Assembly: GCA_905221615.1 (NCBI GenBank)
Contig: CAJNDT010004668.1
Location: forward strand, 261,001-325,000
Origin: Symbiodinium sp. CCMP2592
Taxonomy: Eukaryota; Sar; Dinophyceae; Suessiales; Symbiodiniaceae
Length of the DNA: 64,000 bases
Reading direction: 5' to 3'
Shown here: positions 6,692-62,941 of the stretch, piece by piece
Layout: each line of letters begins with the position of its first letter
How positions within the stretch are numbered: position 1 is the stretch's first letter
Notes under the pieces: generated by a model
What the model was told of the DNA's origin: nothing
Database searches by the model: none
Seen by the model: the letters and a program-made list of their open reading frames with translations, nothing else
Made by a program: the position numbers and the translations under genes

Positions 6692-6696
6692 ACCCT
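6692..6696. repeat. Target-site duplication, left
   Basis: ACCCT directly before the 5' LTR; the same five bases follow the 3' LTR at 19018-19022. The insertion is in telomere-like repeat, where ACCCT is common, so the evidence is moderate. Confidence 0.55.
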
Positions 6697-6860
6697 TGTG
6701 AAATTTCCCTGTCTTGAAGCGCCGTGTTGACATGTCCTCATGCGTGAATAGTTTTTGAGACAGTTCTGAACGCACCCTATTCGACAGACGTCTTGGGCTC
6801 AGACCAAAAAGTGCGCTCGTTGTGTGGTTGGACACTCACTAATCCAGTTCCTGCTTCAAA
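6697..6860 (+). repeat. 5' LTR
   Basis: Starts TGTGAAATTTCC and ends CCTGCTTCAAA. Identical to 18854-19017. The TG...CA form would end at 6858; ending at 6860 makes the flanking ACCCT repeats match. No clear TATA box seen. Confidence 0.85.
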
Positions 6861-6861
6861 C

Positions 6862-6873
6862 TGGTAGCGGAGC
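6862..6873 (+). promoter_or_regulatory. Primer binding site (initiator tRNA-Met type)
   Basis: TGGTAGCGGAGC starts one base after the LTR. TGGTAGC matches the complement of the 3' end (GCTACCA) of initiator tRNA-Met, the primer known for yeast Ty1 and many copia elements. Confidence 0.7.
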
Positions 6874-6978
6874 TGTGAGGACAACCACTAGTGTTTCACC
6901 CCCGTAGAGCCTGTGGTCCGGGGTCCGTTGGGTAGAGTAGTGATAGTCGCGGCGCAAAGGCCCCTTCTATCTGAAGCC

Positions 6979-9900
6979 ATGAGCGTGGCAGGTTTGCGTT
7001 ACCAGCCCAATCTCTGGTCACAGAACCTGAGCCCTGCAGAAACGAAAAGCGGTTCGTACATATACGACGGTACGGCTGCTGGCTTCCACGATTGGTGCTT
7101 CCGGACACAGATCCGTGTGCTGCAACATAAGGAGAAGCAGCGGCGTGAAGCTCTTAAGGACCTGCGATTTGCCGAGTCGGCAAGGGCCAAGAGCGAGTCA
7201 CCAAGGAAGTGGCGTGGCAGGGCAAGTCAGGGGACCAGTGCATCGCCCACAGATGGTGATGGAAGCAGCGGTATACCCGCCAGTCCGTCCAGCGCAAAAC
7301 GGACTAAGCCCGCGTCCGAGGCAGAAGATGAGGATGCGGAGTCGTTGCCGTCGCACCCCAGCCAAGTGGCGGGCGACGATGAGCAGGAGCCGGACACAGA
7401 TCCGGCGGTGTACACCTTGCAAGACATTAAGGACGAGTCGCTTGATATGAGCGAATGCGTTAGCAAGATTTTGGAGGGTCTCCGAGGAGACGCCTTTTGC
7501 ATTGCTCGCGACGTCGGCCTGGAACGTCTGCTTCGCCATGATGGCGTCGACTACCTGATAGAAGAAATCAGGAGGCAAGCTTTCCCTCTTCAATCTGAAG
7601 AGGCTTCCGAACTTTTCCGTCAGGGACAGCTCCTGACGGGCCCACTCGCAAAGCAACCCGGCGAGCCTATGTTGTCTTACATAGCCCGCCGAAAGCGGTG
7701 GTGGTCGACCTTGCGTGAGCTAGATCCTGATATCCGCCTTTCTGAAGCAATGAGGGCTAACCTCCTTGTTGAGCTTTCAGGGTTGGAAAGGAACGAACAG
7801 CTAATGGTCAAGACCGCCGCCCGCGTACACACCGTGGATGAGTACGCACGCGTCCTTGTTCAGCATCACTCAGTGGTGCACATGAAGGAACGTCTTCTTA
7901 CCCAGAAGGACCCTAGTGGCCCAGGTAAGACCTGGAGACGTTTCGACGCTAAGCCACAATACCCTAAGTTTGGTTACATGGGGTATGATGGTAGTGCCGC
8001 AGAGTATGGTCACCAGGAACAGCAGGAATCCGCGGAAGGCTACGGTGACGGCTACGGCGAGGAAGCATACCAGGCCACAGCGTCTGGGGGAGATGATGCG
8101 GATGAATGGATTGATGATGAAGACCTAGCATTGCAACTCAACGCCTATACGGCAGTGGCATATGAAGCTGAGATTGACGATTTGGATGATTCCTATGCCG
8201 AGTCAGTTCAGCTTGCGTACGCGGCACAGACCGCCTTTGCCCAGGCGAAAGGAAAAGGAAAAGGGAAGAACAAGGGCAAGTCCTCCGGAAAATCCGGAGG
8301 GAAGGTCGTGCGTAGCAATTTGACTATTGCTGATCGTAAGGCCAAGTTGGCAGAGCTTAAGGCAAAGAGTAGGTGCCTGAAGTGCGGTGTGATCGGCCAT
8401 TGGGCCGGAGATGCTGCCTGCAAGTTTAGCGGTAAGGGCAATGGCCCCAAGGGCACCACAACCCCAGCACAGTCTGGGGGAACTGCCAACGCAGCCGCAA
8501 AGCCGGCGGCGCCGAAGCCCCAGGCGTATTTCGCCGCAGTGGAGGAGGATGACACAGAGTGTGTCCACCTGTCGAATGCGAGCGCTGGTAGGCTCGAGGG
8601 TTACCCAGCCAACCTTGAGCTGACCCCCTCGAGGACCAATACCGGCAAAGGCCGCGGCAGTGAAACCCTCTTCTCACCGCAGCTTCGGCGCACAGCCGCC
8701 GCTAGGATCATGCGTGACAGCCCGCCTGAGGGTTCCGATCGCGTTTTCTCCTTTGGTCAGCATAAGGGTCTGACTTATGAGCGTGTCTTGTATACGTTTC
8801 CTGGATATGTTCTTTGGGGACGCACGCAGAAGTGCCCATCCATAAATTTGGCCGATTTCTTGGATTGGGTCACGGAGTACTTTGATGTGCGTGATGACAA
8901 CCCCATTAGCATCACGAGAAGGGATGTCCCTCTCAGCCAGGAGCCCCCGCCTGAACCCTTTCAGCCCGAGGTTCGCCTCGCCGCGTCAGCTGCTTCGTCC
9001 AGCGAAGGCCCCCGGAAATGCCGGGGAGGTTGCAAGGAGTTCAACAAGTCGGGGAGTAACGCATACATAGACATGCGGACCTGTAAGAAATGCGGCACCG
9101 TCACCAAGACGAAGAAAGAGAAGCCTGTCATAGACCAGGCCACATGCCCCCACACCTCCACCGAGAGGTCGGGTAGCAGTAGGAAGACCTCCCGCATTAA
9201 GTGCAAGCTTTGTGGGATGCTTCTAGATGAGCAGCCGCAGACCGAGCGAAAGGCTAGGGATGACGCAGCCACAGTGCTGCGGGAGTCCAATACCCTGGAC
9301 TTCGATCTTCTGCGCAGCATAGTCGGCAGCACGGGGGATAGCCTCCCCGTAGAGGTAGTAGTTCCGGCTATTGCCCAGTTTCAAGAGACCATAGAGGGTC
9401 ACTTCGTAACCGAGCCCGTGATATCTCGCGGTGACCTTCTCGCATATCTGCAAGAGGCCTTAGATGATCACTCTGCGTCATCGACCAACAACAGTTGGGA
9501 AGTGGCGTCGGCGAGATCGCGCTCCTCGAGGGCCTCCGCGACGAGGCACGCCTTCGTGGCTTTCACTGAGGGGGTCACAGATATCCATCCGGCTTTGGTT
9601 GATTTGCCCGTAGTAAATATCTACGAGGATAAGCACGTATACGCCGTGTTGGATGAGGGCTGTAACTCGACTGTTCACGGTAGCGATTGGATAGCAAACG
9701 CGGCGGGGAAACTTGCGAACTTCGGTTACAGCACGAGGTTTAAACCTGAGGGCAATCGTACCTTCAAGGGTCTTAGCGGTGCTACCGAAACCCTGGGTAG
9801 CAGGACCATTCCTTTCTCTATAATGGGATTGGAGCAGGACTTGAGAGTTCCGGGCGTCCTTGATTCTCACGAGATTAAGGGTACAGCCCCTCTTCTTTTG

Positions 9901-12900
9901 TCCCTTTACGCCCAGGCCCAACTTGGTATAACCAAGGATCTTCGGTTTGGCGAGTGTGGTGTTCGACTTCCTTCTGAGGATAGCATCATTAGGATCAAGC
10001 TGTGTCGGACACATGACTCAGGGCTGTTATGCATAAACATAACAGAAGGTTTGGTTCAGGTGAAACAACCCCGTCTCATAAGAAGCTTCCAAATTCCCTC
10101 ACCGCCAGTTCCTATATTTAGGTCTGCCGCCGCCGCCACCTTAGCTCACTCAGAGTCTGTGAGCACCCCTCGAGATGCAACAGCGGCAGATGACGCAGTG
10201 GCAACAAGTCGCAGTCACAGTACTGTAGATGCAGGCCATGGTCATAGCACTTTAGGCGTAGGCCACGGTCACAGCTTCACAACGACAGCTGAGAATCGCA
10301 ACAACACTAAGCGACGTATAAGCGTAGCGTTCCCGAATCATTGTATGGTAGGCACGTCCGTAGGAGACACGGAGCCCGCCGCGATGGCCGCAGAGGAGGG
10401 GCAGCTGCCTAAGAAGGCGCCCCCGACGGCAAAGGCTGCACCGAAGATTTCAGCAGCGCCGGAGCCTGGCCACAGTGCCATGGCGACTTCGCCTGCGGTC
10501 GGCCACAGTGCCGTACCGGTGATCACGCCTGCCTTCCCCGCGCATGCGCCCAAGGCACCGCCTGGAGGAAGCGGCTTGCCAAAGAAGGCGCCTCCCACAG
10601 AGAAGGCAAGGCCTGGGGATAGCCCAGGGAACCCGCCGGCAGCTCGTGCCACAGTGCACCCGAAGGAGATCGCGCGAGGGCACCGCGAGCTTGCCGAGTT
10701 CGATGCGGTTGTGAAGAAGGATCCGCACAACAGGCCCCTGGTTATAATGGCAGGTGGTGGACCCCATGGTCCGGAGCTCGACACTCCTCTTCCAGCAACC
10801 GTGTATAATCCGGATTTGGCCTTGCTACCGTACTATGCGGGGGACACAGCGAACCCGGACATCATTATTGATGTTTTTACCTGGGGCTATGAGCACCATG
10901 CCTGGCTGCAACGCGTCAGAGGGAAGTGGACGGCGGCCGAGCTCTTCGCACAGCACGAAGAGATGGAAACGCATGCGCTCACGACGTATGCGAGTGCCAC
11001 TAGCTATATGCTAGTGATGTTGGACATGGTGTGGCTCAGGGACGATCGGAAAGACGATCTGACGCCAGCAGAAGCCCAACAGCGCAACGACGAACAGCGC
11101 GACCGCACAAAGCATGTTGGGTCGAACCCCGATATAATTCGGGAGCACGCGGACCACCCCAACCTGATCGCCCACGTCAGGCACATCGTGGCGAACGTCC
11201 TTGACGCTAAGGACGCTGGGATTCGGTCCATTGCCGTGCATGTGGTTTGCAAAGCCAACAGACACAGATCTGTTGCGGCGGGCATCCTTGCCCATGCAAC
11301 GCTTTTGGAGCTCGTGCCAGACTGCTCTGTCAGCCTCACTCACATGAGTGCAGCGAATAGTTGGCCCTTCATGGGCAGCAAGGCGTGCAAAGGACAGTGT
11401 CCCAAGTGTTTGCACCGCGCCCCTGGCATAGCCCAGGAGGTCCAGGAGCTCACGAGGTGCTTCGTCGACGCTGTCCGCACAGACGGACCAGAGGATAACG
11501 AGTGCATCCTTGTCGTGGAGCCGCAGTGTGCACGCCCCGATGATCAGCCTACATATGCTGAGCGGTTTCATGCGCAGATGCTTGCAGAGGGCCGCATACC
11601 GGCACCGGTGACAGGGGTAGGCCCCCTTGATAGGCCTCCCATGGCAGGCGAAACCGCGTATCAGGCTGCACAACGCATGGGGCTGGTCGGCAAGACACAT
11701 ACATCGTATGTGGCAAAGTACGACCCGAACTCGCTCACTGCGGCGATGAACCGCGCACAGGGCACAGCCCCTGGAGGACGCCTACCTTCGGTTACTTTTA
11801 GCTCGGGTCCTAACCCTGCTAGTTCTAGCGTAGGTGCGTCAGCCAAGGGCGGAGCGGCCCCCATAGAGAGGCCGAAGGCTACGCCAGCACCGCCGCCGGC
11901 AAAGTCCGGTGGAGCACAGGACCGCGCAGCGACGCCGACAGGGTCGTCGGCTCGGATTCGCAAGCTCGAGGCTGAGGTCCACGACCTCACTGATGCGAAT
12001 CGCTGCCAGGAAAGCACTATAAGTGACTTGAGAGAAGCCCTCAGCAACGTGAAGCGGCAGCGCGATAATGCGTATGATCGGCTGCAGGACATGCGTGAGA
12101 GGGCAGAAGACGCGGAGACTCGAGCCGATAGGGCCGAGGCGGAGCTCAAGAGGCTTACTCGCCGCTCCCGATCGCGTCGCAGGCGGAGGGATAGTTCCTC
12201 CTCGAGCAGGGGTCATCGCCGAGACCGTACCCGTGAGAGACGGCGGATGGACTCCAGACCTCGGGATAGGTCCGAGGCTCCGACGCGCCAGCGCACCTCC
12301 CGTTGGGGTCGCGTCCGCGACCCAGGTGACCGTGCGGATCGGGACACAGTTCCCGAGCCAGAACGCATTCGTGCTGCAGGCCGGGACACAGCTCCCGAGC
12401 GTGACCGCACGAATCCTCGCCCCACTGCACGGCCGGAGGTGGATGTCGAGCCCGACAAAGGCAAGGGCAAAGGCAAGGCGGCACCGCACAGCGTGTATGA
12501 TGAGGTCGAGTACGACGACGGCACAGGTGCGGGAGACTGGGATCCACCGGGACCCAGGAGCAACCTCGGCAGCAGGCGCCCGCCTGAGCCGCCGGAGCCA
12601 CCGCGCTTCCGAGGCAGTGCTGGTTACAATAGGTTTCCAGAGCGTGAGAATCCTCACCGCCCCATGACGGCCAGAGAGTCATGGTGGTATTTCCACGGCG
12701 ATAGGCCGTCGGACGAGTGGAACGACGCGGAATGGGCAGAATTCCGTCGTCAGTTTCCGAAGCCCCCAGGGCAAGGCAAGCTCGTCGAAATCGACGAGAA
12801 GATTCTGGCCATCGACGTTGGTGCCATCGCACTTAGCCCCGACACAGGTTTCGGGTGGAACAGGCGCATCGTGTTTCAGGACTTTCCTGATGGTGTGCTG

Positions 12901-15900
12901 ACTGACCTATATGAGGTCATGCGCGAGAAGCAGGCGCCAGCGTGTTGGATCGGTCCATATGCACCGAGACGTTTCTGGGCTGGTGATAAAAATCACCACG
13001 AACTCAGCGAGCGGCACAACATAAAGTGCACAGTGGTCACCCGCCACACAGGCCGTTCGTATAAGCCGACGGGCAAGCTACGGGACATAGATCCCATAGG
13101 ATACTTGTTTTCCCATCTGGATCCCGCCGACGGCTCCAGCTGGACGTATGAAGGCGCATGCTTTCCGCCGGGGTCAGACTCCGAGAAGCTGCCCACCGAA
13201 ACCGGTGGAGCCGAGCAAGCATGCCCGACGCAAGAACCGTCGGAGGATGGGGCGTACGTCGCGCTTTGGGTGTTTCCCTTGGCGTTCGACGCGGCCACAG
13301 TGCCCCACCAGATCGAGGACACAGATGCCTTGAGTGCAGTGTACATCCCGGGCACAGACCCGCGGGCTTCGCGCATCGCCTCCTCTGCCGGCCCGGGCAC
13401 AGCCCCGGAGGGTGAAGTTTCACCCATGGATGAGGACGGAGCAGAGCGCGAAGCATACATGGCCGTCTGCAGTGGGGAGTGGGTAGGACAAGCCAGCCAG
13501 ATTTCTTTTCCAAGCCCTGATCCTCCCGAAGACCTGCCCCACAGTAGCAGCGCAGCCTATGGGCCCTCAGCCGCTAGCTTAAAGAAGCTTAGCAAGGCCC
13601 AGTCCAAGTACCTCACCTCAAGCCTTACCGAAATGGTAGCGGGAGACAAAGTCTTAAAGGCAATCGTGTACAACGCTGCCATGCGAGAAGCTGATCACCT
13701 GATTAGATTGCATGAACCCTCGGCACAGGTCCTCGCGAGCGTGATCAACGAGAGGCAGAACGGGCCACCGGGCCTCGTGGTTGCCAGGTTTGAGACTTCC
13801 ACAGAGGAGTTGTGTTTGGAGCTTGAGTGTGTAGCTGACACCCTCAACATTCCGGTTATATTGGTTACCCCGAACGGCTACCCAATGCTTGAGGACACTG
13901 TTACCTTGAGAGGAGACATGCATATCTCAGGCATAGGCCCAGAGATCGGAAAGGCTTTGGACTCCTTCCAAGCATGGTCAGAGTCTTACGGGTATATACC
14001 CCGTAGTTATGTTGATACGGATAGTACTGACTTTTGGAACCTTTGTCGTACCATTTCTGAGGAGTACTATATCAACGCGTTTAGCCGAACTTGCTTTGTC
14101 GGCGACGCCCAGGACACAGATCCTGAGGACATCAGCGAAGCAGAGCTGGTGCCCGATGCTGAGATGCCTCAGCGAGGTGCCCCTGATGGGGTGGATGATG
14201 CCGGTGGCGCACTGACGCCCGAGGAAAGAGAACGCCTCATTTTGGAACAATTCCCGTTCCCCGGAACGCCGAATACAGAGGCAGAGCGCCGAGCGGCGTG
14301 GAGATCGTTACCGCAACGAGTCCGGGTAGCTATAAGGCGCCTGCACCGATCGTTTGGCCATCTGCCAAACGCAGTCCTGGTTCAGGTCCTGAAGCAGGCC
14401 CGGGCGAGCAAGGATTTCATCGCCGCTGCCGGACTTTACAAGTGTAAGGTCTGCCTGGACACAGCTCCAGTGCCCAGGCATCACCCTGTCGCAGGCGATA
14501 GTGTATTCCCTAAGGAGTTCAACCATACGATAGGTATGGATGCGCTAGAGGTCAAAGACTTCTATGGAAATCGCTATACTGCTGTCAATATAGTTGACAT
14601 GGGAACAAGCTTCCAGCAAGTTGTTCTCGTGAAATCTGGGGGTGGTAACCCAAGTGCCCGCCAGTGTGTGAAATGCCTGATCGACAGGTGGGTCAGCTGG
14701 GCTGGACATCCCAAAGTCATAACCACTGACAGAGGGACGCACTTCAGGGGAGAATTTTCAGAGTATTTGGCACAGCATGGTATAATCCATAAAAACGCCC
14801 CTCTTGAGAGCCCGCAGACTATTGGAAAGGTTGAACGCCATGGTGGACTTGCTAAGGCCATCATCAGGAAAGTCGCGCAGGAGGCTCAACCCTCGAATAT
14901 CGAGGAGATGGAGGCGGTCGTTACCGAAAGTGTTACTACTAAGAACGAGCTTAGTAGGCACCAAGGGTTTAGCCCGGCACAACACGTGTTGGGAAAGCAG
15001 CCTCGAACGCCGGGTTCAGTGCTAGATGAATCCGAAAGCCTTGGTACATTGTTCACCAAGTATGATGAGACGAGTGTATACTACATTCGGCACAGAGCAC
15101 GGCAGGAAGCCAAAAAGGCCTTTGTTCACTTAGAGACTTCCCGCAAAGTGGCCAAAGCGTTACAGCGTAATGCAGCCCCTCTAGACACTGACTATAAGGT
15201 TGGTGATTTAGTTATTTACCGTCGGGATAACGTCCCTGGCAGCCCAGGTGTCGTGTGGTCCACGGTTAGCCGCGTCATAGGACGTGAGGCAGAGAATGCG
15301 TACTGGGTATTACACGAGAATATCCCTGTACTTGTGAACGCTAGGAAGATGCGCCCGGCTGATGAAATTGAAGTTGCAGCGCATCGCGTTTTGGCAGGAG
15401 AACCAGTGCTTCCGGAAGCCATTGTTCATGGACCGGAACAAAGGTTCCAGGATGAGCGCGTAGCAGACCCGGTCACAGCACCAGCGACGCCACGTCCAGT
15501 GGCTGCAGCTGCCCCGCTTACACCGGCAGTCGCGCACGATGTGCCTATGCCAGCACCATCGACGCCAGCGATGATGCCCGGCACACCGATGCCAGCGCTA
15601 TCCACGCCTGCAAGGTTTCGCGCCAAAGATAAGACGGGCGAAACCGCCCGGTCGCGATCGCCAGTAGGAGGCCGTGATGATGCACTAGTTGCGGAAGAAA
15701 TTGATCAAGTAGAGATCATGGCAAAAGGGCTGATAGATACTCAGGGTTTTTCCCCGGATGAGTGTCTGGCCCTCCTTCGTGCCTATGACCGCGACCGACG
15801 CGAGGCTTACACGCGCCCGCTCCTAGATGATGGAGATCCCGGGTGCATAGCCCTCGCGGTGGGAGTATATCGGCACGGTGGTCTTGTTGGAGTTTCTGGA

Positions 15901-16272
15901 CCAACGCGCGAGAGACCGTCGTTTGCCATGTACCTCAACCACTACATCTTGCATCACAGTATGCAAGCCGGTCATCACCTCCCACAGTGGAGTAGCGTTC
16001 AGCTTACCAACAGAGGCGCAGAGGCCCATAGAGACCTAGCGAACACTCCTGGCTCGCATAACTACACTATAGGTGTGGGCGAGTATCGTGGAGGCGGTCT
16101 ATGGGTGGAAGAAGCCACGGGTACAACCCCCGTGCGTGTTCAAAACACGACAATGTATGGCACCGTCCACGATACTAAGAACAAGGTTCTTAAGTTTCGC
16201 CCGAAGGACGTGCACATGGTCGCACCGTTTGTAGGAGAAAGATACAGTCTCTTCCGCATACACGGTGAGTGA
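6979..16272 (+). CDS. Retrotransposon ORF1: gag-protease-integrase polyprotein with extra domains
   Basis: Start is the first in-frame ATG; the frame is open upstream to 6913 without another ATG. Numbering from this Met: gag-like helices to about 330; zinc knuckle C466-x2-C469-x4-H474-x6-C481; two zinc-ribbon-like Cys pairs near 685-760; aspartic protease motif LDEGCNSTVHG with D892; His-rich GHGHS repeats; a domain with VVCKANRHRSVAAG (C1424, Cys-x5-Arg-Ser) resembling the RapZ C-terminal signature; coiled coil then Arg/Ser-rich region near 1660-1770; integrase with HRSFGH...CKVC zinc site and catalytic D2521, D2584, E2619; and at the end an oxygenase-like domain with H3017-R-D3019, H3079 and R3088. 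Ends HGE-stop, overlapping ORF2. Confidence 0.9.
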   Translation: MSVAGLRYQPNLWSQNLSPAETKSGSYIYDGTAAGFHDWCFRTQIRVLQHKEKQRREALKDLRFAESARAKSESPRKWRGRASQGTSASPTDGDGSSGIPASPSSAKRTKPASEAEDEDAESLPSHPSQVAGDDEQEPDTDPAVYTLQDIKDESLDMSECVSKILEGLRGDAFCIARDVGLERLLRHDGVDYLIEEIRRQAFPLQSEEASELFRQGQLLTGPLAKQPGEPMLSYIARRKRWWSTLRELDPDIRLSEAMRANLLVELSGLERNEQLMVKTAARVHTVDEYARVLVQHHSVVHMKERLLTQKDPSGPGKTWRRFDAKPQYPKFGYMGYDGSAAEYGHQEQQESAEGYGDGYGEEAYQATASGGDDADEWIDDEDLALQLNAYTAVAYEAEIDDLDDSYAESVQLAYAAQTAFAQAKGKGKGKNKGKSSGKSGGKVVRSNLTIADRKAKLAELKAKSRCLKCGVIGHWAGDAACKFSGKGNGPKGTTTPAQSGGTANAAAKPAAPKPQAYFAAVEEDDTECVHLSNASAGRLEGYPANLELTPSRTNTGKGRGSETLFSPQLRRTAAARIMRDSPPEGSDRVFSFGQHKGLTYERVLYTFPGYVLWGRTQKCPSINLADFLDWVTEYFDVRDDNPISITRRDVPLSQEPPPEPFQPEVRLAASAASSSEGPRKCRGGCKEFNKSGSNAYIDMRTCKKCGTVTKTKKEKPVIDQATCPHTSTERSGSSRKTSRIKCKLCGMLLDEQPQTERKARDDAATVLRESNTLDFDLLRSIVGSTGDSLPVEVVVPAIAQFQETIEGHFVTEPVISRGDLLAYLQEALDDHSASSTNNSWEVASARSRSSRASATRHAFVAFTEGVTDIHPALVDLPVVNIYEDKHVYAVLDEGCNSTVHGSDWIANAAGKLANFGYSTRFKPEGNRTFKGLSGATETLGSRTIPFSIMGLEQDLRVPGVLDSHEIKGTAPLLLSLYAQAQLGITKDLRFGECGVRLPSEDSIIRIKLCRTHDSGLLCINITEGLVQVKQPRLIRSFQIPSPPVPIFRSAAAATLAHSESVSTPRDATAADDAVATSRSHSTVDAGHGHSTLGVGHGHSFTTTAENRNNTKRRISVAFPNHCMVGTSVGDTEPAAMAAEEGQLPKKAPPTAKAAPKISAAPEPGHSAMATSPAVGHSAVPVITPAFPAHAPKAPPGGSGLPKKAPPTEKARPGDSPGNPPAARATVHPKEIARGHRELAEFDAVVKKDPHNRPLVIMAGGGPHGPELDTPLPATVYNPDLALLPYYAGDTANPDIIIDVFTWGYEHHAWLQRVRGKWTAAELFAQHEEMETHALTTYASATSYMLVMLDMVWLRDDRKDDLTPAEAQQRNDEQRDRTKHVGSNPDIIREHADHPNLIAHVRHIVANVLDAKDAGIRSIAVHVVCKANRHRSVAAGILAHATLLELVPDCSVSLTHMSAANSWPFMGSKACKGQCPKCLHRAPGIAQEVQELTRCFVDAVRTDGPEDNECILVVEPQCARPDDQPTYAERFHAQMLAEGRIPAPVTGVGPLDRPPMAGETAYQAAQRMGLVGKTHTSYVAKYDPNSLTAAMNRAQGTAPGGRLPSVTFSSGPNPASSSVGASAKGGAAPIERPKATPAPPPAKSGGAQDRAATPTGSSARIRKLEAEVHDLTDANRCQESTISDLREALSNVKRQRDNAYDRLQDMRERAEDAETRADRAEAELKRLTRRSRSRRRRRDSSSSSRGHRRDRTRERRRMDSRPRDRSEAPTRQRTSRWGRVRDPGDRADRDTVPEPERIRAAGRDTAPERDRTNPRPTARPEVDVEPDKGKGKGKAAPHSVYDEVEYDDGTGAGDWDPPGPRSNLGSRRPPEPPEPPRFRGSAGYNRFPERENPHRPMTARESWWYFHGDRPSDEWNDAEWAEFRRQFPKPPGQGKLVEIDEKILAIDVGAIALSPDTGFGWNRRIVFQDFPDGVLTDLYEVMREKQAPACWIGPYAPRRFWAGDKNHHELSERHNIKCTVVTRHTGRSYKPTGKLRDIDPIGYLFSHLDPADGSSWTYEGACFPPGSDSEKLPTETGGAEQACPTQEPSEDGAYVALWVFPLAFDAATVPHQIEDTDALSAVYIPGTDPRASRIASSAGPGTAPEGEVSPMDEDGAEREAYMAVCSGEWVGQASQISFPSPDPPEDLPHSSSAAYGPSAASLKKLSKAQSKYLTSSLTEMVAGDKVLKAIVYNAAMREADHLIRLHEPSAQVLASVINERQNGPPGLVVARFETSTEELCLELECVADTLNIPVILVTPNGYPMLEDTVTLRGDMHISGIGPEIGKALDSFQAWSESYGYIPRSYVDTDSTDFWNLCRTISEEYYINAFSRTCFVGDAQDTDPEDISEAELVPDAEMPQRGAPDGVDDAGGALTPEERERLILEQFPFPGTPNTEAERRAAWRSLPQRVRVAIRRLHRSFGHLPNAVLVQVLKQARASKDFIAAAGLYKCKVCLDTAPVPRHHPVAGDSVFPKEFNHTIGMDALEVKDFYGNRYTAVNIVDMGTSFQQVVLVKSGGGNPSARQCVKCLIDRWVSWAGHPKVITTDRGTHFRGEFSEYLAQHGIIHKNAPLESPQTIGKVERHGGLAKAIIRKVAQEAQPSNIEEMEAVVTESVTTKNELSRHQGFSPAQHVLGKQPRTPGSVLDESESLGTLFTKYDETSVYYIRHRARQEAKKAFVHLETSRKVAKALQRNAAPLDTDYKVGDLVIYRRDNVPGSPGVVWSTVSRVIGREAENAYWVLHENIPVLVNARKMRPADEIEVAAHRVLAGEPVLPEAIVHGPEQRFQDERVADPVTAPATPRPVAAAAPLTPAVAHDVPMPAPSTPAMMPGTPMPALSTPARFRAKDKTGETARSRSPVGGRDDALVAEEIDQVEIMAKGLIDTQGFSPDECLALLRAYDRDRREAYTRPLLDDGDPGCIALAVGVYRHGGLVGVSGPTRERPSFAMYLNHYILHHSMQAGHHLPQWSSVQLTNRGAEAHRDLANTPGSHNYTIGVGEYRGGGLWVEEATGTTPVRVQNTTMYGTVHDTKNKVLKFRPKDVHMVAPFVGERYSLFRIHGE
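10735..11412 (+). other. RapZ C-terminal-like / Cys-x5-Arg domain inside ORF1
   Basis: About 225 residues between protease and coiled coil. The strand-loop-helix signature IAVHVVCKANRHRSVAAGIL resembles the C-x4-HRSV signature of the RapZ C-terminal family and also the Cys-x5-Arg loop of cysteine phosphatases. It ends in a Cys-rich segment (CKGQCPKC). Family assignment is from the motif only. Confidence 0.4.
15830..16260 (+). other. 2OG-Fe(II) oxygenase-like domain at end of ORF1
   Basis: Order of motifs: H-R-D, then YRGGGLWVE about 20 residues later, then H3079 with R3088 nine residues on. This is the HxD...H...R iron and 2-oxoglutarate ligand pattern of the prolyl-hydroxylase/AlkB/TET superfamily. 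The separate ORF at 46055-47014 has the same motifs in the same spacing, including WVE..TGTT after the G-G turn. Confidence 0.65.
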
Positions 16273-18691
16273 TCTCGGCAAGTTGTCTAAAGATGACATA
16301 CAGCTTTTGTCGGACTTAGGCTACCCCATATATAGGGATGCGCCCAATACCTTTGGCAGGAAGGGCGATGGGATATACACCATGGGTCACTCTGATCTTC
16401 CCATCGAGACGTTCCTAGAACGCATCCATGAGTACGGGATTAAGGAAATCATAGATTGCAGAAGCCATCCGTACAGCGTTCGGCATCCACAATACAATTG
16501 TGATGAGCTTTCCGCCACATGCTTTGCAAAAGGGGTTGTGTACAGTCACGCCCCCGAGTTAGGCAACAGGAATCGGGGCGGGATTGAAGCCAATCTGCAA
16601 ACAGACCAAGGGCTCTGTACGATCGCTAGAATAGTTAGCGAGGCCCACGATGACTTCCACCGAATACTTCTGTTGTGTTCGGAGGCCAGTTGGCGGCGAT
16701 GCCATCGGCGAAATATCGCCCAGCACATATGGCTCGAGCATTCGAAACTTGCCGAGCACATACGTGCTAACGGACTGCCAGAAGCCCATCCGTGTCACTA
16801 CATTCCTGAGGAAGACGACGGACTGGCAGCGGCATCGCACACAGCTGCGATTGGCACGACTGTGCCAGCAGCTGAGCCCTCGGATAGTCGAGCGGCGGAA
16901 TCCAAGGCCTTTGCTCTCACCCCAGATGGGGAAGACGCCATCGGCTCTAATGTCGATGCTGGCTACATGGCCTCGCTCCTGGATTACCACAAAGCCCCTG
17001 TCGAAGTACAGCTGGGGCTGGATGCTGCCATGAAAACTGAATGGCAGAAGTACACTGAATTCAACGCAGTGGTCCCTTGCACAGACAAGGAGTTCAAGGA
17101 GCTTACAAAGGCTGGCCACGTGTGCATCCCCACCAAATGGGTCCTCACCGATAAGAATGAACACCTAAAGGGGACGCCAGCATACACTCCCAAGTGGAAA
17201 GCACGCTTGGTCGCATGTGGAAACTTCGAGCATATCTCGAATGAGGAGGATATCAGGGCAGACAGCCCCACGGCCGAGCCGGAAGGCATAGCCCTTCTGT
17301 GTTCATGGGCGGTTTCATTGGCCCTGCGGCTCAAAGCAGCCGATATAACGAACGCATACTTCCAAGGGAAACCCCTTGAGCGCCTTCTCATTCTTCGGGT
17401 TCCTAAACACCCTAAGGGTGTACCCGATGCAGAGATTCAGCGAGCCGGGCATATGATTGCCCGAGTACCCGTGTATGGCACGACCGACGCGGGTCGGAAC
17501 CTTTATCTCCGCATAAAGGAGAGTGCCCGCGAATTTGGCTTAAATGCCTCGCAAATTCTGTCAGCCCTGTACTATATTACAGGAGAAGGTGGTCGTTTGT
17601 GTGCTTGCTTGTGCACCCACGTGGATGATTTCCTGTGGGCTGCTACCGCCGAAGGCGAGCCGGCTATCCAGAATCTGCTGGATAAGTTTAAGATCGGTCG
17701 CATAGAGACTGAGAAGTTCCGTTTCTGCGGACGCGAGTATGTGCAAAGCGCCGATGGGACCATCAGTATAAACTGTAGGGACAACACGCGTGCAATTCGC
17801 CCGATCGATATTCATAAGTCTGAAAAGGGCACGACTCCAGTCTCGAATGGCCAGCGCACAGCGCTGAGATCCGTCATAGGATCGCTGGCTTGGGTGGCTC
17901 GCGCCACGAGACCTGATCTTGCCTATAGGGTGAATGCCCTGCAGCAGCGTGTTACGACAGCCACGGTGGATACACTCCGTGAAGCAAACCGCGTAGTAGC
18001 ACTGGCGTTAGGAGATGCGGATAGGCCGATCACGTACAGCGCTAAGTTACCCTGGAATACAGGGGAGCTGGCGATTGTCACGTTTTGCGACGCCTCCTTT
18101 GCAGGAGAGGCAAACCATAAGTCGCAGAGAGGTCGTTTCCACTATCTCACTTCCGCACAGTCGGCGGTGGACAAGAACGCGTCAACGCATGAGATGCACC
18201 TCATTTCGTTTTCCTCGTCCACCATGAAACGGGTTTGTCGCGCCACACTCCAGTGTGAGGCTTACTCGTTGCAACATGCGATAGAGCATGGAGACCGCAT
18301 TCGAGCAGCAGTGCTCGAACTGCTCGGCAAACTGCCCCGGTCACAGAACTGGGAAGAAGTCGCCAAGAGATCGATGTTCCACCTGCAGTATACGGACTGC
18401 AGGTCCCTTTCGGATCACTTGACTGCGTCGATTCCAAAATCATGCGAGGATAAACGCCTCGCCATAGAGATGTCTGGACTCCGCCAAGGACTTTGGGAAG
18501 AGGACGAGCTAACGCACGCCTTGTACCATCCTTACGGCGACGAGTTGAGATGGATACCGACGCATTTACAACTTGCGGATTGTTTGACTAAGAGTATGAA
18601 ACCGCTTTTGATCAATCACAGCATTGATCGCAATCTCGTTCAGGTGCTCGATGTGCCCGCGCAAGCCGCACAGAATGTCGAGAGTACCTAA
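16265..18691 (+). CDS. Retrotransposon ORF2: DUF488 + reverse transcriptase + RNase H
   Basis: Lies in the +1 frame relative to ORF1. The frame opens at 16235 and the first ATG is only at 16382, inside the DUF488 domain, so translation probably needs +1 frameshifting within 16235-16272, as in Ty1 (inference). Residues 36-180 are DUF488; 260-500 are a copia RT with ADITNAYFQG and the catalytic HVDD (variant of YVDD) at 17618-17629; 585-790 are RNase H with TFCDASFAG, CEAYSLQHA, YTDCRSL and a terminal THLQLADCLTK typical of copia RNase H. Stop TAA at 18689. Confidence 0.85.
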   Translation: MSDLGKLSKDDIQLLSDLGYPIYRDAPNTFGRKGDGIYTMGHSDLPIETFLERIHEYGIKEIIDCRSHPYSVRHPQYNCDELSATCFAKGVVYSHAPELGNRNRGGIEANLQTDQGLCTIARIVSEAHDDFHRILLLCSEASWRRCHRRNIAQHIWLEHSKLAEHIRANGLPEAHPCHYIPEEDDGLAAASHTAAIGTTVPAAEPSDSRAAESKAFALTPDGEDAIGSNVDAGYMASLLDYHKAPVEVQLGLDAAMKTEWQKYTEFNAVVPCTDKEFKELTKAGHVCIPTKWVLTDKNEHLKGTPAYTPKWKARLVACGNFEHISNEEDIRADSPTAEPEGIALLCSWAVSLALRLKAADITNAYFQGKPLERLLILRVPKHPKGVPDAEIQRAGHMIARVPVYGTTDAGRNLYLRIKESAREFGLNASQILSALYYITGEGGRLCACLCTHVDDFLWAATAEGEPAIQNLLDKFKIGRIETEKFRFCGREYVQSADGTISINCRDNTRAIRPIDIHKSEKGTTPVSNGQRTALRSVIGSLAWVARATRPDLAYRVNALQQRVTTATVDTLREANRVVALALGDADRPITYSAKLPWNTGELAIVTFCDASFAGEANHKSQRGRFHYLTSAQSAVDKNASTHEMHLISFSSSTMKRVCRATLQCEAYSLQHAIEHGDRIRAAVLELLGKLPRSQNWEEVAKRSMFHLQYTDCRSLSDHLTASIPKSCEDKRLAIEMSGLRQGLWEEDELTHALYHPYGDELRWIPTHLQLADCLTKSMKPLLINHSIDRNLVQVLDVPAQAAQNVEST
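16370..16805 (+). other. DUF488 domain fused to copia RT
   Basis: Starts GIYTMGHSDLPIETFLERI, continues IIDCRSHPYSVRHPQYN, SHAPELGNR and ends LLLCSEASWRRCHRRNIAQH. These are the conserved blocks of DUF488 (IYTIGHS; DVR..P.SR..P.FN; LPELGG; LLCAE....CHR). I know of this family as a stand-alone, mostly prokaryotic protein of uncertain function. Confidence 0.75.
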
Positions 18692-18853: not shown

Positions 18854-19017
18854 TGTGAAATTTCCCTGTCTTGAAGCGCCGTGTTGACATGTCCTCATGC
18901 GTGAATAGTTTTTGAGACAGTTCTGAACGCACCCTATTCGACAGACGTCTTGGGCTCAGACCAAAAAGTGCGCTCGTTGTGTGGTTGGACACTCACTAAT
19001 CCAGTTCCTGCTTCAAA
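18854..19017 (+). repeat. 3' LTR
   Basis: Identical to the 5' LTR over 164 bp. Preceded by CAGATAAGACGGG, a weak polypurine tract. Confidence 0.85.
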
Positions 19018-19022
19018 ACCCT
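19018..19022. repeat. Target-site duplication, right
   Basis: ACCCT, matching 6692-6696. Confidence 0.55.
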
Positions 19023-19702: not shown

Positions 19703-20000
19703 CCTTTGAAGGGTTCCCTTTGTGACTGATTTGGGGTCTATACGGGTTCTACTGTTGCCACTCCTGCTTGAGTACAGTTACATGGTCCTACTTGGGTACA
19801 GTTACATTGAGCGACGCGGAACTGATTCATATGAAGTAGGGCTTATATTACCATTTTGGTGAGTGTAGATAGGCCTCCTTTTGAATTTTGGTGAGTGTAT
19901 GTATTGGGTTTTATTATGGGGATACTAGTAATATAAACCATACTCTATATAAGAAGCCCAAGGTTTCTTAATCAGGTTCCTACATTTGAAAGGAAAAGAA

Positions 20001-20108
20001 CCCAGAGACTCCAATATCCCTTAATTAAGGAATATTTCTTAAATCATATTACGGATCCTACTATAATTCAAGGTATATTCCTTAATTAAGGGGTATTGGA
20101 GTCTCTAG
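20001..20108. repeat. Hairpin element F1, copy a
   Basis: Near-palindrome with ends CCCAGAGACTCCAATA and TATTGGAGTCTCTAG, arms CCTTAATTAAGGAATAT and centre GGATCCTACTATAATTCAAG. GAA flanks it on both sides (3-bp duplication). Ends AG right before coding sequence. Confidence 0.85.
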
Positions 20109-20184
20109 GAACCAAGGTGAGGAGACGCAGCCTTCGACGATGACCCTGGCAAAGCAGGCCAAGGAGTTTCCGGAAACTTCGGGG
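20109..20184 (+). CDS. Coiled-coil gene, probable exon
   Basis: Reads NQGEETQPSTMTLAKQAKEF then PETSG, directly after the F1 element ending in AG, and followed by GTACCG as a possible donor. Confidence 0.45.
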
Positions 20185-20398: not shown

Positions 20399-20750
20399 AC
20401 TAGGGTCCCCTATTTTCGAAAGCCCCGAAATCGAAACCTTAGGCTCGAAAGCCCAAACGCCACACACTAAAAGCCCAACAGTCACGGCCCCAAAACCCAA
20501 AACCCGGTAAGTGCAAAACCTTCAAGGCCTTAACTACCCTCAAACCCCTAGCCCCTAGCCCCTCAACCCCAAACCCTCAACCCCCTTTAACCTCGAAGGC
20601 CCCAAAAAAACCCTAAACCCTAAACCCTAAGCTCTATTTGGCCCTAAACCCTAAACCCCATAGATCCCTCTAAGGAACCCTATAGATCCCTCTAAGGAGC
20701 CCTTTAAGAGCCCTTACTATTTCCATGGCCCCTCCAAGTAAACCCTAGAA
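20399..20750. repeat. Telomere-like CCCTAAA tract
   Basis: Degenerate C-rich telomere-like sequence upstream of the next exon; also holds CCCTCCAAGTA (20729), the end of hairpin family F8. No gene. Confidence 0.7.
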
Positions 20751-20862
20751 CCCAGAGACTCCAATACCCCTTTTTTTTTAAGGAATATTCCTTAAATCAT
20801 ATTAAGGATCCTACTATAATTTAAGGTATATTCCTTAATTAAGGGGTATTGGAGTCTCTGGG
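20751..20862. repeat. Hairpin element F1, copy b
   Basis: CCCAGAGACTCCAATA...TATTGGAGTCTCTGGG with a T run in the left arm; GAA on both sides. Confidence 0.85.
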
Positions 20863-20865
20863 AAG

Positions 20866-34622: not shown

Positions 34623-34730
34623 CCCAGGGACTCCAATATCCCTTAATTAAGGAATATTCCTTAAATCATATTAAGGATCCTACTATAATTCAAGTATATT
34701 CCTTAACTCAATGGTATTGGAGTCTCTGGG
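34623..34730. repeat. Hairpin element F1, copy f
   Basis: CCCAGGGACTCCAATATCCC...GGTATTGGAGTCTCTGGG with GGATCCTACTATAATTCAAG centre. Confidence 0.85.
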
Positions 34731-35028
34731 AATGGCATAGTGGGTTCAAAGGAAGACCCAAGACGCTGCAGGTTCTGGTAGTTGAAGGCAAGGCTAGAAC
34801 CCGCAACCACCAACCAAAACACCCCGGAAGTAGTAACGAAGCCCCAAAAGTTGAAAGACTATCCTTTAGATATCTTCCTCACTATCAGCATAGTATAATG
34901 TACTCTAGTTAGTCCACTATAACCATAGGGCTCTTGTGTTAATACCCGTCTAAAATTTCTTGTCGCAACCTTTCTCGACACCCTTTTCCACCTATTCTAA
35001 ACCCTAAAAACTAAAAAAAACCCTAAAA

Positions 35029-45612: not shown

Positions 45613-46073
45613 CCTCGAGTCACAGACACACCATGCCAAGCCCCGACAACATGCCCCCTTGTGCGGAAGAACTCATACAGTCCTTGCGGTGTGAGCTTCG
45701 AAATATGCCATTGGGAGTGTCTAGGATAGCTGCTGACTCATTGTATTCCCGTTTTGCACAAAAGAGAAACACGTATCCTCTTGATGGGATTGTTGTTGTT
45801 CATAATGCTATTATGGAATGTGCACCATACTGGCTTGACACATCAGCTGATCCTATTGCAGAAGGGATACGGGCCCATACAAAAGAGGAAGTACATGACT
45901 GGGTAGTATGGATGGAACGCCAAGTGTATGAAGTAGCTGTGGAAGTTGCACGAACTTTCATACCACCCCTTCCTGACCCTGACCCCACATCACATCCCGA
46001 GCCCGACTCCCCTCTGTTATCCCCTGGATTGCAACATGCTAGTACACAAACCGAATGGAGTATCCCACCGTAG
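45555..46073 (+). CDS. Cluster ORF D, 172 aa, unknown
   Basis: Start may be the second ATG (MPSPDNMPPCAEELI, about 45633), which would remove the overlap with ORF C. Helical middle, acidic Pro-rich tail (PPLPDPDPTSHPEPDSPLL). Overlaps ORF E by 19 bp. Confidence 0.5.
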   Translation: MASPSGHTFPLDASPETDLASSHRHTMPSPDNMPPCAEELIQSLRCELRNMPLGVSRIAADSLYSRFAQKRNTYPLDGIVVVHNAIMECAPYWLDTSADPIAEGIRAHTKEEVHDWVVWMERQVYEVAVEVARTFIPPLPDPDPTSHPEPDSPLLSPGLQHASTQTEWSIPP

Positions 46074-47014
46074 TCCCAGCAACTATGGCTCAGGGGTGCT
46101 GCCCTAGCCGAAACATGGAAGCCCCCACTTGTGTACCTAGCAAGGCCCAACAGATCCTGCAACTGAAACAACATATCTTGCAAGCATTTGACAGCGCTCC
46201 CGCCAAATACAAACTGGCAGAAGGCTCAGGACACACACTTACTTTAGGCCTTAATCCCAGAGACCTTTCACGCCTCTGTGTAGCGACAGCTCCCCTACAG
46301 TACCTTGCTAGCCAACTGAGCAGTCTGTTCAAACTCCTCACCCCTAACCATAAGTTTTCCACCATTACGATCCGGGATTCTGCGGGTAAAGGGTTACATC
46401 GGGACCTAAGAAACTCCCACTATCCTCAAGCCGTCATACCCTTAACTGCATTTGTTGGAGGGGAGATCTGGGTTGAATCGCCAACAGGAACAACCCAGAA
46501 AACATATATGGGTAGTGTACTTCAAGGCACCCTGCACAGTTTTTCATCAGGCGACCCACTAATCTTCACGGGGAAACGGTTATTACATGCTACGGAAGAT
46601 TGGGAACATAGACGTGTAGTGGCAGTCGCTTTCACGGTTATGGGATCTATTAGTATCCCTAGACCGCTCGATGAGGCGTTAGGTAATCTAGGATTTATCA
46701 CCCCAGATAGCCTGGAGGTCGACTTCTATACACGGGTACTTATGGGACCAGGACAACTTCGTCAGACCACACTAACAGATCTTCCACGATCTGGGGCCAC
46801 AGGAATCTGGGGTGTAGGCAAACTGAAACAGGGGTTTCCCTTGACTCTTGTACTCAGTGATAGTGAGAATGAGAACACTCCTCGCTCACCTGTATCTACC
46901 GTGGAATTAGGGACACACACTAATAAGAAACACCGCCCTACACAGGTAGATTCCTATACCTCCGAATCACAAGCCACCCTCCCCTGGCCTTCAGATGCGG
47001 CCGCAGGCGGCTAA
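46055..47014 (+). CDS. Cluster ORF E: 2OG-Fe(II) oxygenase-like protein, 319 aa
   Basis: Residues 100-195 hold STITIRDSAGKGLHRD (H115, D117), FVGGEIWVESPTGTT, and LLHATEDWEHRRVVAVAF (H178, R187). This HxD...H...R order and the H-to-R spacing of nine match the domain at the end of the retrotransposon ORF1. The C-terminal third is Ser/Thr-rich and low complexity. Expected chemistry is iron- and 2-oxoglutarate-dependent oxidation; the substrate is unknown. Confidence 0.65.
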   Translation: MEYPTVVPATMAQGCCPSRNMEAPTCVPSKAQQILQLKQHILQAFDSAPAKYKLAEGSGHTLTLGLNPRDLSRLCVATAPLQYLASQLSSLFKLLTPNHKFSTITIRDSAGKGLHRDLRNSHYPQAVIPLTAFVGGEIWVESPTGTTQKTYMGSVLQGTLHSFSSGDPLIFTGKRLLHATEDWEHRRVVAVAFTVMGSISIPRPLDEALGNLGFITPDSLEVDFYTRVLMGPGQLRQTTLTDLPRSGATGIWGVGKLKQGFPLTLVLSDSENENTPRSPVSTVELGTHTNKKHRPTQVDSYTSESQATLPWPSDAAAGG

Positions 47015-55909: not shown

Positions 55910-55992
55910 CAAGGAAGAGGTGCAGCGCCCGGATGGCCAGACGGAGATCGTCGAGCGAGGCAGATGCGAGGCACGACATGCATTACAGAGAA
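55910..55992 (+). CDS. Putative exon before F1 element
   Basis: Reads SKEEVQRPDGQTEIVERGRC EARHALQR, then GAA and the F1 hairpin. Confidence 0.45.
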
Positions 55993-56100
55993 CCCAGCGA
56001 CTCCAATACCCCTTAATTGAGGAACATTCCTTAATCATATCAGGGATCCTACTATAGTTTGAAGTATATTCCTTAAATAAGGGGTTTTGGAGTCTCTGGG
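55993..56100. repeat. Hairpin element F1, copy h
   Basis: CCCAGCGACTCCAATACCCC ... TTTTGGAGTCTCTGGG, GAA on both sides, GGATCCTACTATAGTTTGAA centre. Confidence 0.85.
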
Positions 56101-56200
56101 AAGCAGAAGACAGTCTTTGAACACGGTTCAGCGTTTTGTTTTTTTGGGTTTGGCCTGGATGCCAAAAGGGTTTAGAGTCTAGACTTCAGGTGCAGGGGTA

Positions 56201-59746: not shown

Positions 59747-62261
59747 GCCCTAAGCCCACAACCCCAAACCCTGAACCCTAAAGCCTTAAACCCTAAAACC
59801 CTAAGCCCTAAAACCCTAAACCCTGAACCACCCTGAGAAGCCACAGGACGTGGCAGGCCTGAGCCACTGGAGCCACGTGGTCCTGTGGCAGCCGGCATCG
59901 ATGGCAGTCTCCGGTCTCCCCTCACACGAAGGCACCCTTACCTAAGGCTCAATCCTCAGAGCCCTATAGAACATGGTCTTTAGGCCCAAAAGCCTCAAAA
60001 TGTGGGTCCTGAGAGCCTCAGGGTTATTAACAGGTTTATGCTTCGCACTAGGGTTCACTTTCTGCCTGGGCGCATGAACTTTTCTGAGAGTTGGCTGGTA
60101 TGCACCCGGGTTTCGAAGCTAGAGTCATGACCGTTGAAATGCACCGGCTCACTCATCACCTGACGATGTCCACCAGGTTGCTACAAGGCGGTCGCCTTCG
60201 CCGTAGGGTTGGCGCCATGGCTGAACAGTTCAACATTCCCTAGGGGGGAGCTTCTGGACATGATCCAAGAATAGACCCGATATGGTCGCAGTGGCCCTGA
60301 TCTGCAGCTTTCTGACAGGGCCGCGAAGTTTCAAGAACTCTAAGAACTCTTGCACACAGAAATGCGCACAGAAAGTCCGGTCTCATGGCATGCGCCGGTG
60401 CAGCCCAAACATACACACGACACGGATGGATTTGGGGAAAGCGCGGACCTGTCCGAACCGTGCACTGTCTGGAACCGAAACCCTAGACAGGACCCTAAAC
60501 CACAAATCGTTGTCAACGTTGGAAAGGAGTGGATGAACACTCAGCTCTTGTAAGAAATGCGAGCAGTGTATACATATGTATATTGAGAGTCCTAAGGACT
60601 CATCTCACTACTTATTCAGGTACCAATACTGATTGTAGGCATCATTTTGCGTCCAAAGGCTGAACGTCCCACGATTCTCATTAAAGGTTCTCCTTTTCTG
60701 TCCAAAGCCAAGGAGTGGGTTGTTAGACCGTAGCTCTTGATTCAGAAGCCTGCAAGCTAACAATCGAAATTTCAGTTATCAGATTTGCCATGCATTTACC
60801 GTGCCCAATCTACCAAGCTGACAGAAGTGTGAGCACAAAGGCCACCTTAAACCCAAACCCTCAACCCTGGGCCGCGCCTGCCTGTGTTCTCAAATCTCAA
60901 TGCTCCGCGCCCTAAGCGCTAAAGCCCAAAGCCCCTAACCCTAAATCCTGAAGCCTACAACCTAAGCCCTAAACGCTTAGCCCAAAACTCTAAACCCTAA
61001 TCCCTGTTTGAAAACCTTAAACCCTAATCCCTAAACCCAACACCCTAATTAAGTCTTCAAGTAATAATCAACCCTCAGCTGAGTGAGCCTAAGCCCCGAG
61101 GTGCGACATGCGCCAAACCCAGAGCGGCAGACGAAGGCAACCGTAAAGAGTTGTAGGCCTCGAAGAAGTGGAGGAACGGGTTCTGTTGTCTAACGTCTAA
61201 AGTGTACTTAGTCAGCTTATAACATTTAGCTAAAAAATGACGTAACAGCTCAAGAAGGCCATGCTTAGAGTTAGGTCGTGGCTTTAAACTGGAGGACATA
61301 GTTCCCTCTGAGACTAGCACAGGCGTTAGAGATGGGTTTAGATAGCTCGGGCAGGCTCTGCATCGATGTTGGAAAGCGGAAGCGCAAGGGATAGGTGATA
61401 TGGAAGTGATGGTTCAGAGTGGCAATAAAGGACACTGAACAATCACATGAATTGTGCTGGCTTGCACAAAACCTAGACCCTAAAGCCTAACCCCCCAGAG
61501 CACAACGCCCATGCTTCTCGGATGGCCGCAGTGTGATGTGACTTCTGCGAGGTGGTCGTGATGGCCCGGGTTCGTTTCAGCTCCGGTCTCATCCAGCAGC
61601 CCGGAGCCATCTCTTGGAACACGTCTAGGGCCTTAGGCCCCAAGACCCAGCCCGCCCCCAAACCATACACTCCCGACCTGGAACTCAAACGGAACCGTTG
61701 AGGTACATCCTGCCACGGGTGATCCGATCGGTGCTGCATTCCCAGTCGCAAAAGCTGATCCAAGTGATCCTTTGCGGCAGTTTGCTTTAAGGTTCGGGGC
61801 TTCCGGCAGGTCTAGATGTGGAAACATTATGGTATTCGCTGGTCCAGGAGTCTCCGCATGAACCCAGCGCTAATACTTATGCTCCATGTCCCGCCGAACG
61901 CCGCTGACTACATTTTCAAAGCGTCAGTCAGCACTATATGCCAGAAAAGTCAAGATTTGCAGCACATCCAGCTGTTGCGGATTGGTTGACCCAGTGTTAG
62001 CATCATGCGTGCACGGTTGCCGCGTTACCACAGAATCAGCACAACACATGCCCAGTAAAGCTGCATCACTAAAGCTGCATTGCCACCGGGTATCACGAGA
62101 AGTGGAGGAGTCTCTTGCTGGGAGAGGCGGGTAACTATGATAGTTGCTTGCCAGCACAGCGACTGCACACGAAACATGTTGATTGCATTGGCTCAAAAGT
62201 GCTGGCCGTCCATTCATTTTATGAGGGCCAGTGGACGCTAGGAGTACTGCCATTCGCAGGC
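59747..62261. other. 2.5 kb without a firm gene
   Basis: CCCTAAA tract 59755-59825 and 60840-61060; between them ordinary sequence. A 39-codon ATG frame at 60127 (MTVEMHRLTHHLTM...) is possible but unsupported. 61860-62261 would be upstream of the kinase gene. Confidence 0.4.
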
Positions 62262-62941
62262 ATGACCGATGGCTCCGTGGAAGAGGACCAAGCGACCCAG
62301 TCGGAGACCGTGACGCAGGCAACGCAGGGCTTCAATGTGGAGTCGCAGGCCGCTGGGGAGACTTGCCATGCGGTAGTCTTTTCCACCAAAGGCAATGAGA
62401 AGTTCGAATTCGAGCTGGAAGGTGCCAGCGAGGTCTTCCTTGGGCGCTCGCCGGATTGCGAAATCCAAGCAAAGGACATGCACGTGTCCAAGAAGCATCT
62501 ACGGATCTATCGTGATGATCAGCGGTGTTATTTCATAGAGCAGCTCAGCCCTGCGGGGACATTCATTAATACACAGTACCTGAAGAAGGGGGAGCGACGC
62601 GTGCTCAACCATGGTGATGCCATCACGATTACACGCCAGCTCTCTGCCGATATAATTCCTTTCGCATCCTTCTTCTTTCGCACGACAGGACAGACTGAGA
62701 CAGGAGCACCACAAGCAGGAGCAGACTTGGCCAAAGTGAACATTGATACATCGGATTGCGAGCTTCGGCATCTGGTCACAGACGGCTGGGTGAGGAGGCA
62801 GTGGGACATCTCGCAGAAATTGGGCGGTGGCGCTTTCAGCACGGTAAAGCTGGGCGTGCGCAGCAAGAAGGGGATCTCAGAAGAGCTCATGCCAGGGCTG
62901 AGGTGCGCCATAAAGATCATCGACAAGAGGAAGTTGACGAA
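62262..62941 (+). CDS. FHA-domain protein kinase, exon 1
   Basis: Start chosen at MTDGSVEEDQATQ: TTCGCAG lies two bases before it, a plausible spliced-leader acceptor; the frame is open further upstream. The FHA domain covers about residues 35-130 with VFLGRSPDCEI, HVSKKHLRIY and GTFIN, the phosphothreonine-binding signature. The kinase domain starts near 182 with WDISQKLGGGAFSTVKLG (glycine loop) and CAIKIIDKRKL (catalytic Lys). The FHA-then-kinase order is that of CHK2/RAD53-type DNA-damage kinases, but other FHA kinases exist. Confidence 0.85.

Follow-up and report, generated by a model that had tools for sequence, protein, structure and literature searches.

Dinoflagellate retrotransposons raise a question at the locus described here: why would a copia-type element carry a DUF488 domain directly in front of its reverse transcriptase (RT), and what might the domain do there? 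DUF488 is widespread in bacteria, and we know of no function or biochemistry assigned to it. The locus lies in a 64,000-nucleotide stretch of DNA from Symbiodinium sp. CCMP2592 (assembly GCA_905221615.1, contig CAJNDT010004668.1, positions 261,001–325,000 of the forward strand), which as a whole is called the window and whose own numbering is used throughout. The genome searched was the assembly from which the window comes, with 1.098 Gb in 5,383 contigs. The dinoflagellate spliced-leader sequence, taken as query, is present in 429 exact copies in this assembly, compared with none for the reversed control.

The element is an insertion of about 12.3 kb in CCCTAAA-like sequence, and its stranded features all read on the + strand. 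Two long terminal repeats (LTRs) of 164 bp, at 6697–6860 and 18854–19017, are 100% identical, and the sequence on either side reads as a target-site duplication of five identical bases, ACCCT (6692–6696 and 19018–19022). A putative primer-binding site at approximately 6862–6875 resembles the initiator-Met-tRNA type of copia elements. ORF1 (6913–16272) contains a gag region with a CCHC-like knuckle, a protease region assigned solely by sequence reading, an integrase and a 2-oxoglutarate (2OG)-like domain. The DDE-type integrase (14302–14970) lies upstream of the RT, which is the copia order, and its profile matches fall below the curated cut-offs: NCBIfam IS481 transposase with E 4.9e-15 (55.8 bits, cut-off 224) and Pfam rve with E 3.3e-5 (24.5 bits, cut-off 32.6). 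ORF2 (16265–18691, 808 aa) consists of the DUF488 domain (16370–16804, residues 36–180), a linker (16805–16993), the RVT_2 reverse transcriptase (17114–17839, PF07727 E 3.3e-12, above the cut-off) and an RNase H or C-terminal part of pol (17840–18691), the last placed by position and sequence reading and giving no separate profile match. An NCBIfam search with ORF2 returned nothing useful. Given the paired LTRs, the target-site duplication and an integrase in front of an RVT_2 RT, the element is classed on sequence features as a Ty1/copia LTR retrotransposon, and its perfect LTRs and target-site duplication mark it as a recent insertion. A complete gag-pol frame is lacking in this copy, in which the frame is split between ORF1 and ORF2.

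Some further features of the window were noted. A short ExoX-C-like match (8746–8787, E 0.36) follows the gag region, and cysteines resembling those of a zinc finger come after it. Near-palindromic repeats of about 110 bp, 86–92% alike, are found at 19997–20111, 20747–20864, 34623–34732 and 55989–56105 and resemble small inverted-repeat transposons. Read by eye, an ORF at 62115–63008 looks like an FHA domain with the beginning of a protein kinase after it, and is probably a host gene.

A reading of the window made from the sequence alone, referred to here as the sequence-only reading, had recognised DUF488 from its motif blocks, which are indeed present in ORF2, and had proposed a Pfam search to check the assignment. 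The result is significant: PF04343 matches the first 241 residues of ORF2 with E 1.7e-13 and 51.7 bits against a cut-off of 22.2 (53.4 bits in another run), and the whole of ORF2 with E 3.3e-12. The match runs over positions 2–119 of the 121 in the profile and corresponds to 16403–16723 of the window, with RVT_2 downstream in the same frame. By translated BLAST the domain matches 88 plasmid records (best E 2e-13) and one phage (E 1e-9); a DUF488 annotation is carried by most of the 20 plasmid records listed. In the reverse direction a DUF488 from Geobacteraceae, searched against the whole genome, recovers the window's copy with E 2.4e-10. A pattern scan of species genomes gave at least 592 candidate stretches, of which 557 were confirmed, and the best 80 of these 557 show 28–35% identity by best segment.

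To describe the domain we aligned the window's copy with 55 of 89 bacterial and viral DUF488 loci, giving 56 rows (alignment A3) in which the window's domain is 29–38% identical to the other rows. Thirteen columns are identical in 56 of 56 rows and include G-H, D-x-R, C-x-E and C-H-R; the polar residues among them suggest an active site. The central LGGRR...W..F..YADYM segment is shortened and changed in the element. The profile DUF488-N3a (PF22751, “Active DUF488-N3 subclade”) does not match the window's domain at E values up to 0.1, while it matches 50 of the 56 alignment rows weakly (best E 3.5e-7). Because the element's domain has no match to this subclade and has lost part of the central segment, its activity or substrate may differ. 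No solved structure in the PDB credibly matches the DUF488 family profile (best E 0.43), a PHROGs search gave one match at E 0.076, and viral contigs searched with the element's own proteins yielded nothing informative. Judged by its sequence, the ORF2 domain is a member of the DUF488 family.

The fusion is not confined to the window. Searching the genome with the first 241 residues of ORF2 turned up 208 candidates. The 150 that were scored all have E < 1e-100, so that the possibility of a fusion in only this copy is refuted. The scored copies are 80–100% identical to the query, many of them 97–100% identical to the window's copy, and 148 of the 150 have no stop inside the stretch. For an assembly join, or a chance match to the DUF488 motifs, we found no evidence. 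The scored copies occur on many different contigs and their frames stay open across the junction, the Pfam score is more than twice its cut-off and a bacterial DUF488 finds the window's copy again, so that we regard both forms of artefact as refuted and give them essentially no probability.

The sequence-only reading had also called the element apparently intact, which its termini bear out and its coding frame does not: around DUF488 the window's copy has an open frame of 818 codons, whereas 24 of the 150 scored copies reach at least 3,920. In those 24 copies a RapZ-like region more than 5 kb upstream of DUF488 sits in an equally long frame, an agreement in frame length that was compared by eye. 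The 24 long-framed copies indicate that the family's product is normally a single polyprotein of about 3,930 residues, the split into ORF1 and ORF2 being particular to the window's copy. DUF488 starts a second ORF, as had been described, in the window's copy, but in the longer-framed copies it sits in the middle of the polyprotein. We rejected the view that splicing or a programmed frameshift normally joins ORF1 and ORF2, since near-identical copies such as L003 (99.3% identical over 3.7 kb) have a single long frame; the split may come from a sequencing error. The RapZ-like region itself was found at 298 candidate places, 150 of them scored, and often in the same long frame. It contains a weak RapZ C-terminal-like stretch at 11131–11283 on the + strand (PF22740 E 0.0087 when searched separately, 16.7 bits against a cut-off of 27) and is possibly another captured domain. 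DUF1579 also matches weakly within 10840–11450 (E 0.0067).

When the RT of a divergent family member was used as the query, 3,163 candidates were found and 110 were scored, and 108 of these RT places adjoin a DUF488 place (the exceptions being C5156 and C4046). Among the 30 other copia loci read the domain was not seen. They come from a control search with RVT_2, which gave 5,766 candidates; 150 were scored, and the 30 with the best scores were read together with flanks of about 1.5 kb. DUF488 was found in 0 of the 30 (best E 0.3), while three controls were found at E < 1e-29. These 30 loci include several near-copies, and taken by itself the control leaves room for other copia lineages with DUF488. 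In BLAST comparisons of the element's RT with the same 30 loci there was no RT match below E 1, which sets it well apart in sequence from the other copia RTs in the sample.

Selection on the domain, which the sequence-only reading had suspected and had suggested examining through dN/dS, was measured by Nei–Gojobori counts for ten subfamily loci with the window's copy as the reference. The RT and RNase H limits used (residues 244–490 and 491–808) were set in this analysis. In nine of the ten loci, those in which a ratio could be computed, dN/dS for DUF488 is 0.02–0.08; in the tenth, L032, dS is saturated in DUF488. Across the subfamily loci the RT gives 0.03–0.13, the RNase H part 0.03–0.11 and the faster-evolving linker behind DUF488 0.13–0.26, while a decayed relative listed apart (L048) gives 0.08 and 0.30. 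Pooled over the ten loci, whose pairs are not independent, the values are 0.050 for DUF488, 0.107 for RT, 0.061 for the RNase H part and 0.252 for the linker. Codon bootstraps of five single pairs gave DUF488 ratios of 0.03–0.08, with upper bounds of 0.06, 0.07, 0.09, 0.10 and 0.18, next to 0.13–0.26 for the linker, 0.03–0.07 for RT and 0.03–0.08 for the RNase H part. In two of the five pairs (L040 and L042, one of them barely) the bootstrap intervals for DUF488 and for the linker do not overlap, and in the other three (L043, L046 and L047) they do, the linker intervals being wide. Counts of invariant sites go the same way, with 88 of 144 in DUF488 and 23 of 63 in the linker. DUF488 is under strong purifying selection, about as strong as that on the RT.

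These ratios also dispose of the idea that DUF488 is a dead passenger, a neutral and recent arrival that hitch-hiking has spread to many copies. The many copies that are 97–100% identical to the window's copy are what such a passenger would produce, but low dN/dS across subfamilies separated by dS of 0.2 to over 1 rejects neutrality, and we consider a passenger refuted and give it hardly any probability. DUF488 is kept about as carefully as the core enzymes of the element, so the domain probably helps the element. In all five bootstrap pairs dS is higher in DUF488 than in RT (for example 1.30 versus 0.33, and 0.22 versus 0.19 in the closest pair), an excess that is milder and uneven at fourfold sites. 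This difference, seen between 16370–18691 and loci L039–L047, suggests that parts of the element may differ in their history through recombination between subfamilies.

Constraint by itself could also reflect structure, if DUF488 were a non-enzymatic folded spacer or an RNA-binding module that positions the RT within the polyprotein. The need for stability can constrain a folded insert, the domain lies directly before the RT, and both the shortened central segment and the lack of a match to the “Active” subclade model would be in keeping with a protein that is not an enzyme. The residues retained speak for more than a fold: after dropping L001 (the window itself) and L031 (the same place as L039), 46 loci remain, most of them close copies; all 46 retain 12 of the 13 family-invariant columns, and the thirteenth is retained in 45 of 46, which goes beyond the usual needs of folding. 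The RTs of the 30 other copia loci, moreover, have no DUF488 near them. We therefore think a purely structural role improbable.

On the origin of the domain, a tree of DUF488 sequences groups the four rows from the element together as a clade (100/100) at the end of a long stem and resolves no bacterial sister to them. Searching the genome with PF04343 gave 165 candidates, of which 150 were scored, and searching with a bacterial DUF488 gave 157, again with 150 scored; in each case 148 of the scored places coincide with copies of the family. The remaining two, C4855 and C1932, are common to both searches. The former (read as L048) is the decayed relative mentioned above, with integrase-like sequence upstream, and at the latter the RapZ-like region is present, in an equally long frame. 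As all scored DUF488 places belong to the element family, a present host DUF488 gene was rejected as the donor; there is no separate host DUF488 gene among the scored places, though one might escape among the 15 and 7 unscored candidates or if it were made of small exons. The simplest reading of these sequences, we infer, is that the domain was captured once, from bacteria or a mobile source, ahead of the division into the present subfamilies. That DUF488 is a captured and selected domain we regard as practically certain.

Pointers to function come from bacterial relatives of the domain. The DUF488 of the element matches the PADLOC models PDC-M45B (E 9.6e-19) and PDC-M19A (E 2.1e-14), one component only, and so do the two bacterial DUF488s tried. 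Models with the PDC prefix are candidate phage-defence systems only. One of six plasmid DUF488 loci lies near Csm6, and one near genes for TcmP and ImmA/IrrE. Among 89 bacterial and viral loci at least six have a uracil-DNA-glycosylase (UDG) family gene close to DUF488, a raw count with no background rate. These loci (L121, L131, L140, L147, L163 and L164) belong to Bacteroidota and Acetobacteraceae, and the Pfam matches of their UDG-family genes have E values of 9.3e-21 or better. Of 60 neighbour proteins found by script 52 were scanned, and five are of the UDG family, likewise a raw count with no background rate; most scanned neighbours are unrelated. In archaea, two papers describe DUF488 within a replication and repair neighbourhood on Methanoperedens plasmids (PMC9674854), and DUF488 with an HTH fused to a ParB-CTPase fold (PMC12704722). 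The suggestion of the sequence-only reading that the element's DUF488 acts on nucleic acid or in host defence is still a guess, for which the PADLOC matches and UDG neighbours are weak pointers.

The PADLOC matches point to conflict as much as to replication, and DUF488 could act outside the replication of the element, by countering host silencing or repair or by excluding competing elements or viruses. Bacterial DUF488 genes may do likewise in defence islands, and the models shared by the element and the bacterial proteins, together with the plasmid loci near Csm6 and near TcmP and ImmA/IrrE, are in favour of it. The PADLOC models are, however, only candidates, the term PDC-M45 was not found in our literature search, and the domain on average is strongly constrained, with no diversifying selection visible at that level. 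An outward role thus seems unlikely to us, if somewhat less so than a purely structural one.

In our preferred explanation the bacterial-type DUF488 is one module of the polyprotein of a dinoflagellate LTR retrotransposon of copia type, placed between a dioxygenase-like stretch and the RT, and kept there by strong purifying selection for the sake of the element's own cycle. DUF488 would be made and packaged together with the RT, and would act in cis while cDNA is being made, on nucleotides or on the nucleic acid of the element itself, where it might protect, edit or license the cDNA. Other retroelements with exonuclease, helicase or methyltransferase modules provide an analogy, and some retroelements carry dUTPase modules. 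Taken as a whole we consider this explanation moderately probable. Its parts differ in strength: that the benefit falls to the element rather than to the host is likely, whereas a role on nucleic acid or nucleotides is put forward tentatively, as the reading we favour over an anti-host, anti-competitor or structural one.

The stretch immediately upstream of DUF488 offers a more speculative extension. At approximately 15820–16269 on the + strand, motif reading by eye gives the order HRD ... H ... RYS, which resembles that of a 2-oxoglutarate/Fe(II) dioxygenase; searches of this stretch in Pfam, PHROGs and the PDB gave no credible match. A related HRD-type dioxygenase-like stretch was noted in another ORF of the window (46055–47014), with 38% identity over 55 residues (E 9e-5). 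In Breviolum minutum, according to one report, 5-hydroxymethyluracil is enriched over certain repeat classes (PMC11071213). The dioxygenase-like stretch and DUF488 might conceivably form a DNA-base module beside the RT that marks or protects new cDNA, an idea we rate as a long shot. Were it true, in a host group with 5-hydroxymethyluracil in its DNA, the cDNA copy could pass as self or escape base-excision attack.

The sequence-only reading knew of no description of a DUF488 domain in a retrotransposon, and the literature we searched, which lacks most subscription papers and all preprints, likewise contains no such pairing. By title, none of the papers found on DUF488 concerns retroelements or dinoflagellates, and a search for PF04343 found no paper. 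Retrotransposons with accessory domains are already known; DUF488 as such a domain is, within the literature searched, new, and it is also the first domain capture found there in dinoflagellate copia elements. A eukaryotic mobile element with a selected DUF488 provides an independent handle on the function of the domain, and does so in the context of reverse transcription and integration, where nucleic-acid activities can be assayed.

The domain of the element resembles bacterial DUF488 (PF04343) in sequence, with 29–38% identity and the same 13 invariant columns. It differs from it in context, as bacterial DUF488s are mostly small separate genes (158–239 codons in 73 of 79 frames measured, taking the first start codon), while here it is a polyprotein module with a shortened central segment. 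Accessory domains of LTR and non-LTR elements named in the available text of PMC6338049 include the chromodomain, a DnaQ-like exonuclease and an SF1 helicase. The element is like these in having an optional extra domain inside a retrotransposon polyprotein, and unlike them in that DUF488 is not among the accessory domains named in that text. The closest comparison is with SymbioLINE-Dnmt and SymbioDIRS-Dnmt3 of Symbiodinium, a LINE and a DIRS type of element that carry cytosine methyltransferases; the abundant Copia elements of Symbiodinium are said in the same paper to be without DNMT (de Mendoza et al. 2018, PMC5890265). The two methyltransferase-bearing types share with the element in the window a multicopy dinoflagellate retrotransposon, a captured domain and the retention of key residues. 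Unlike them, the present element is a copia element and its domain an uncharacterised DUF488, so that the retrotransposons of dinoflagellates gain a further and different example of domain capture.
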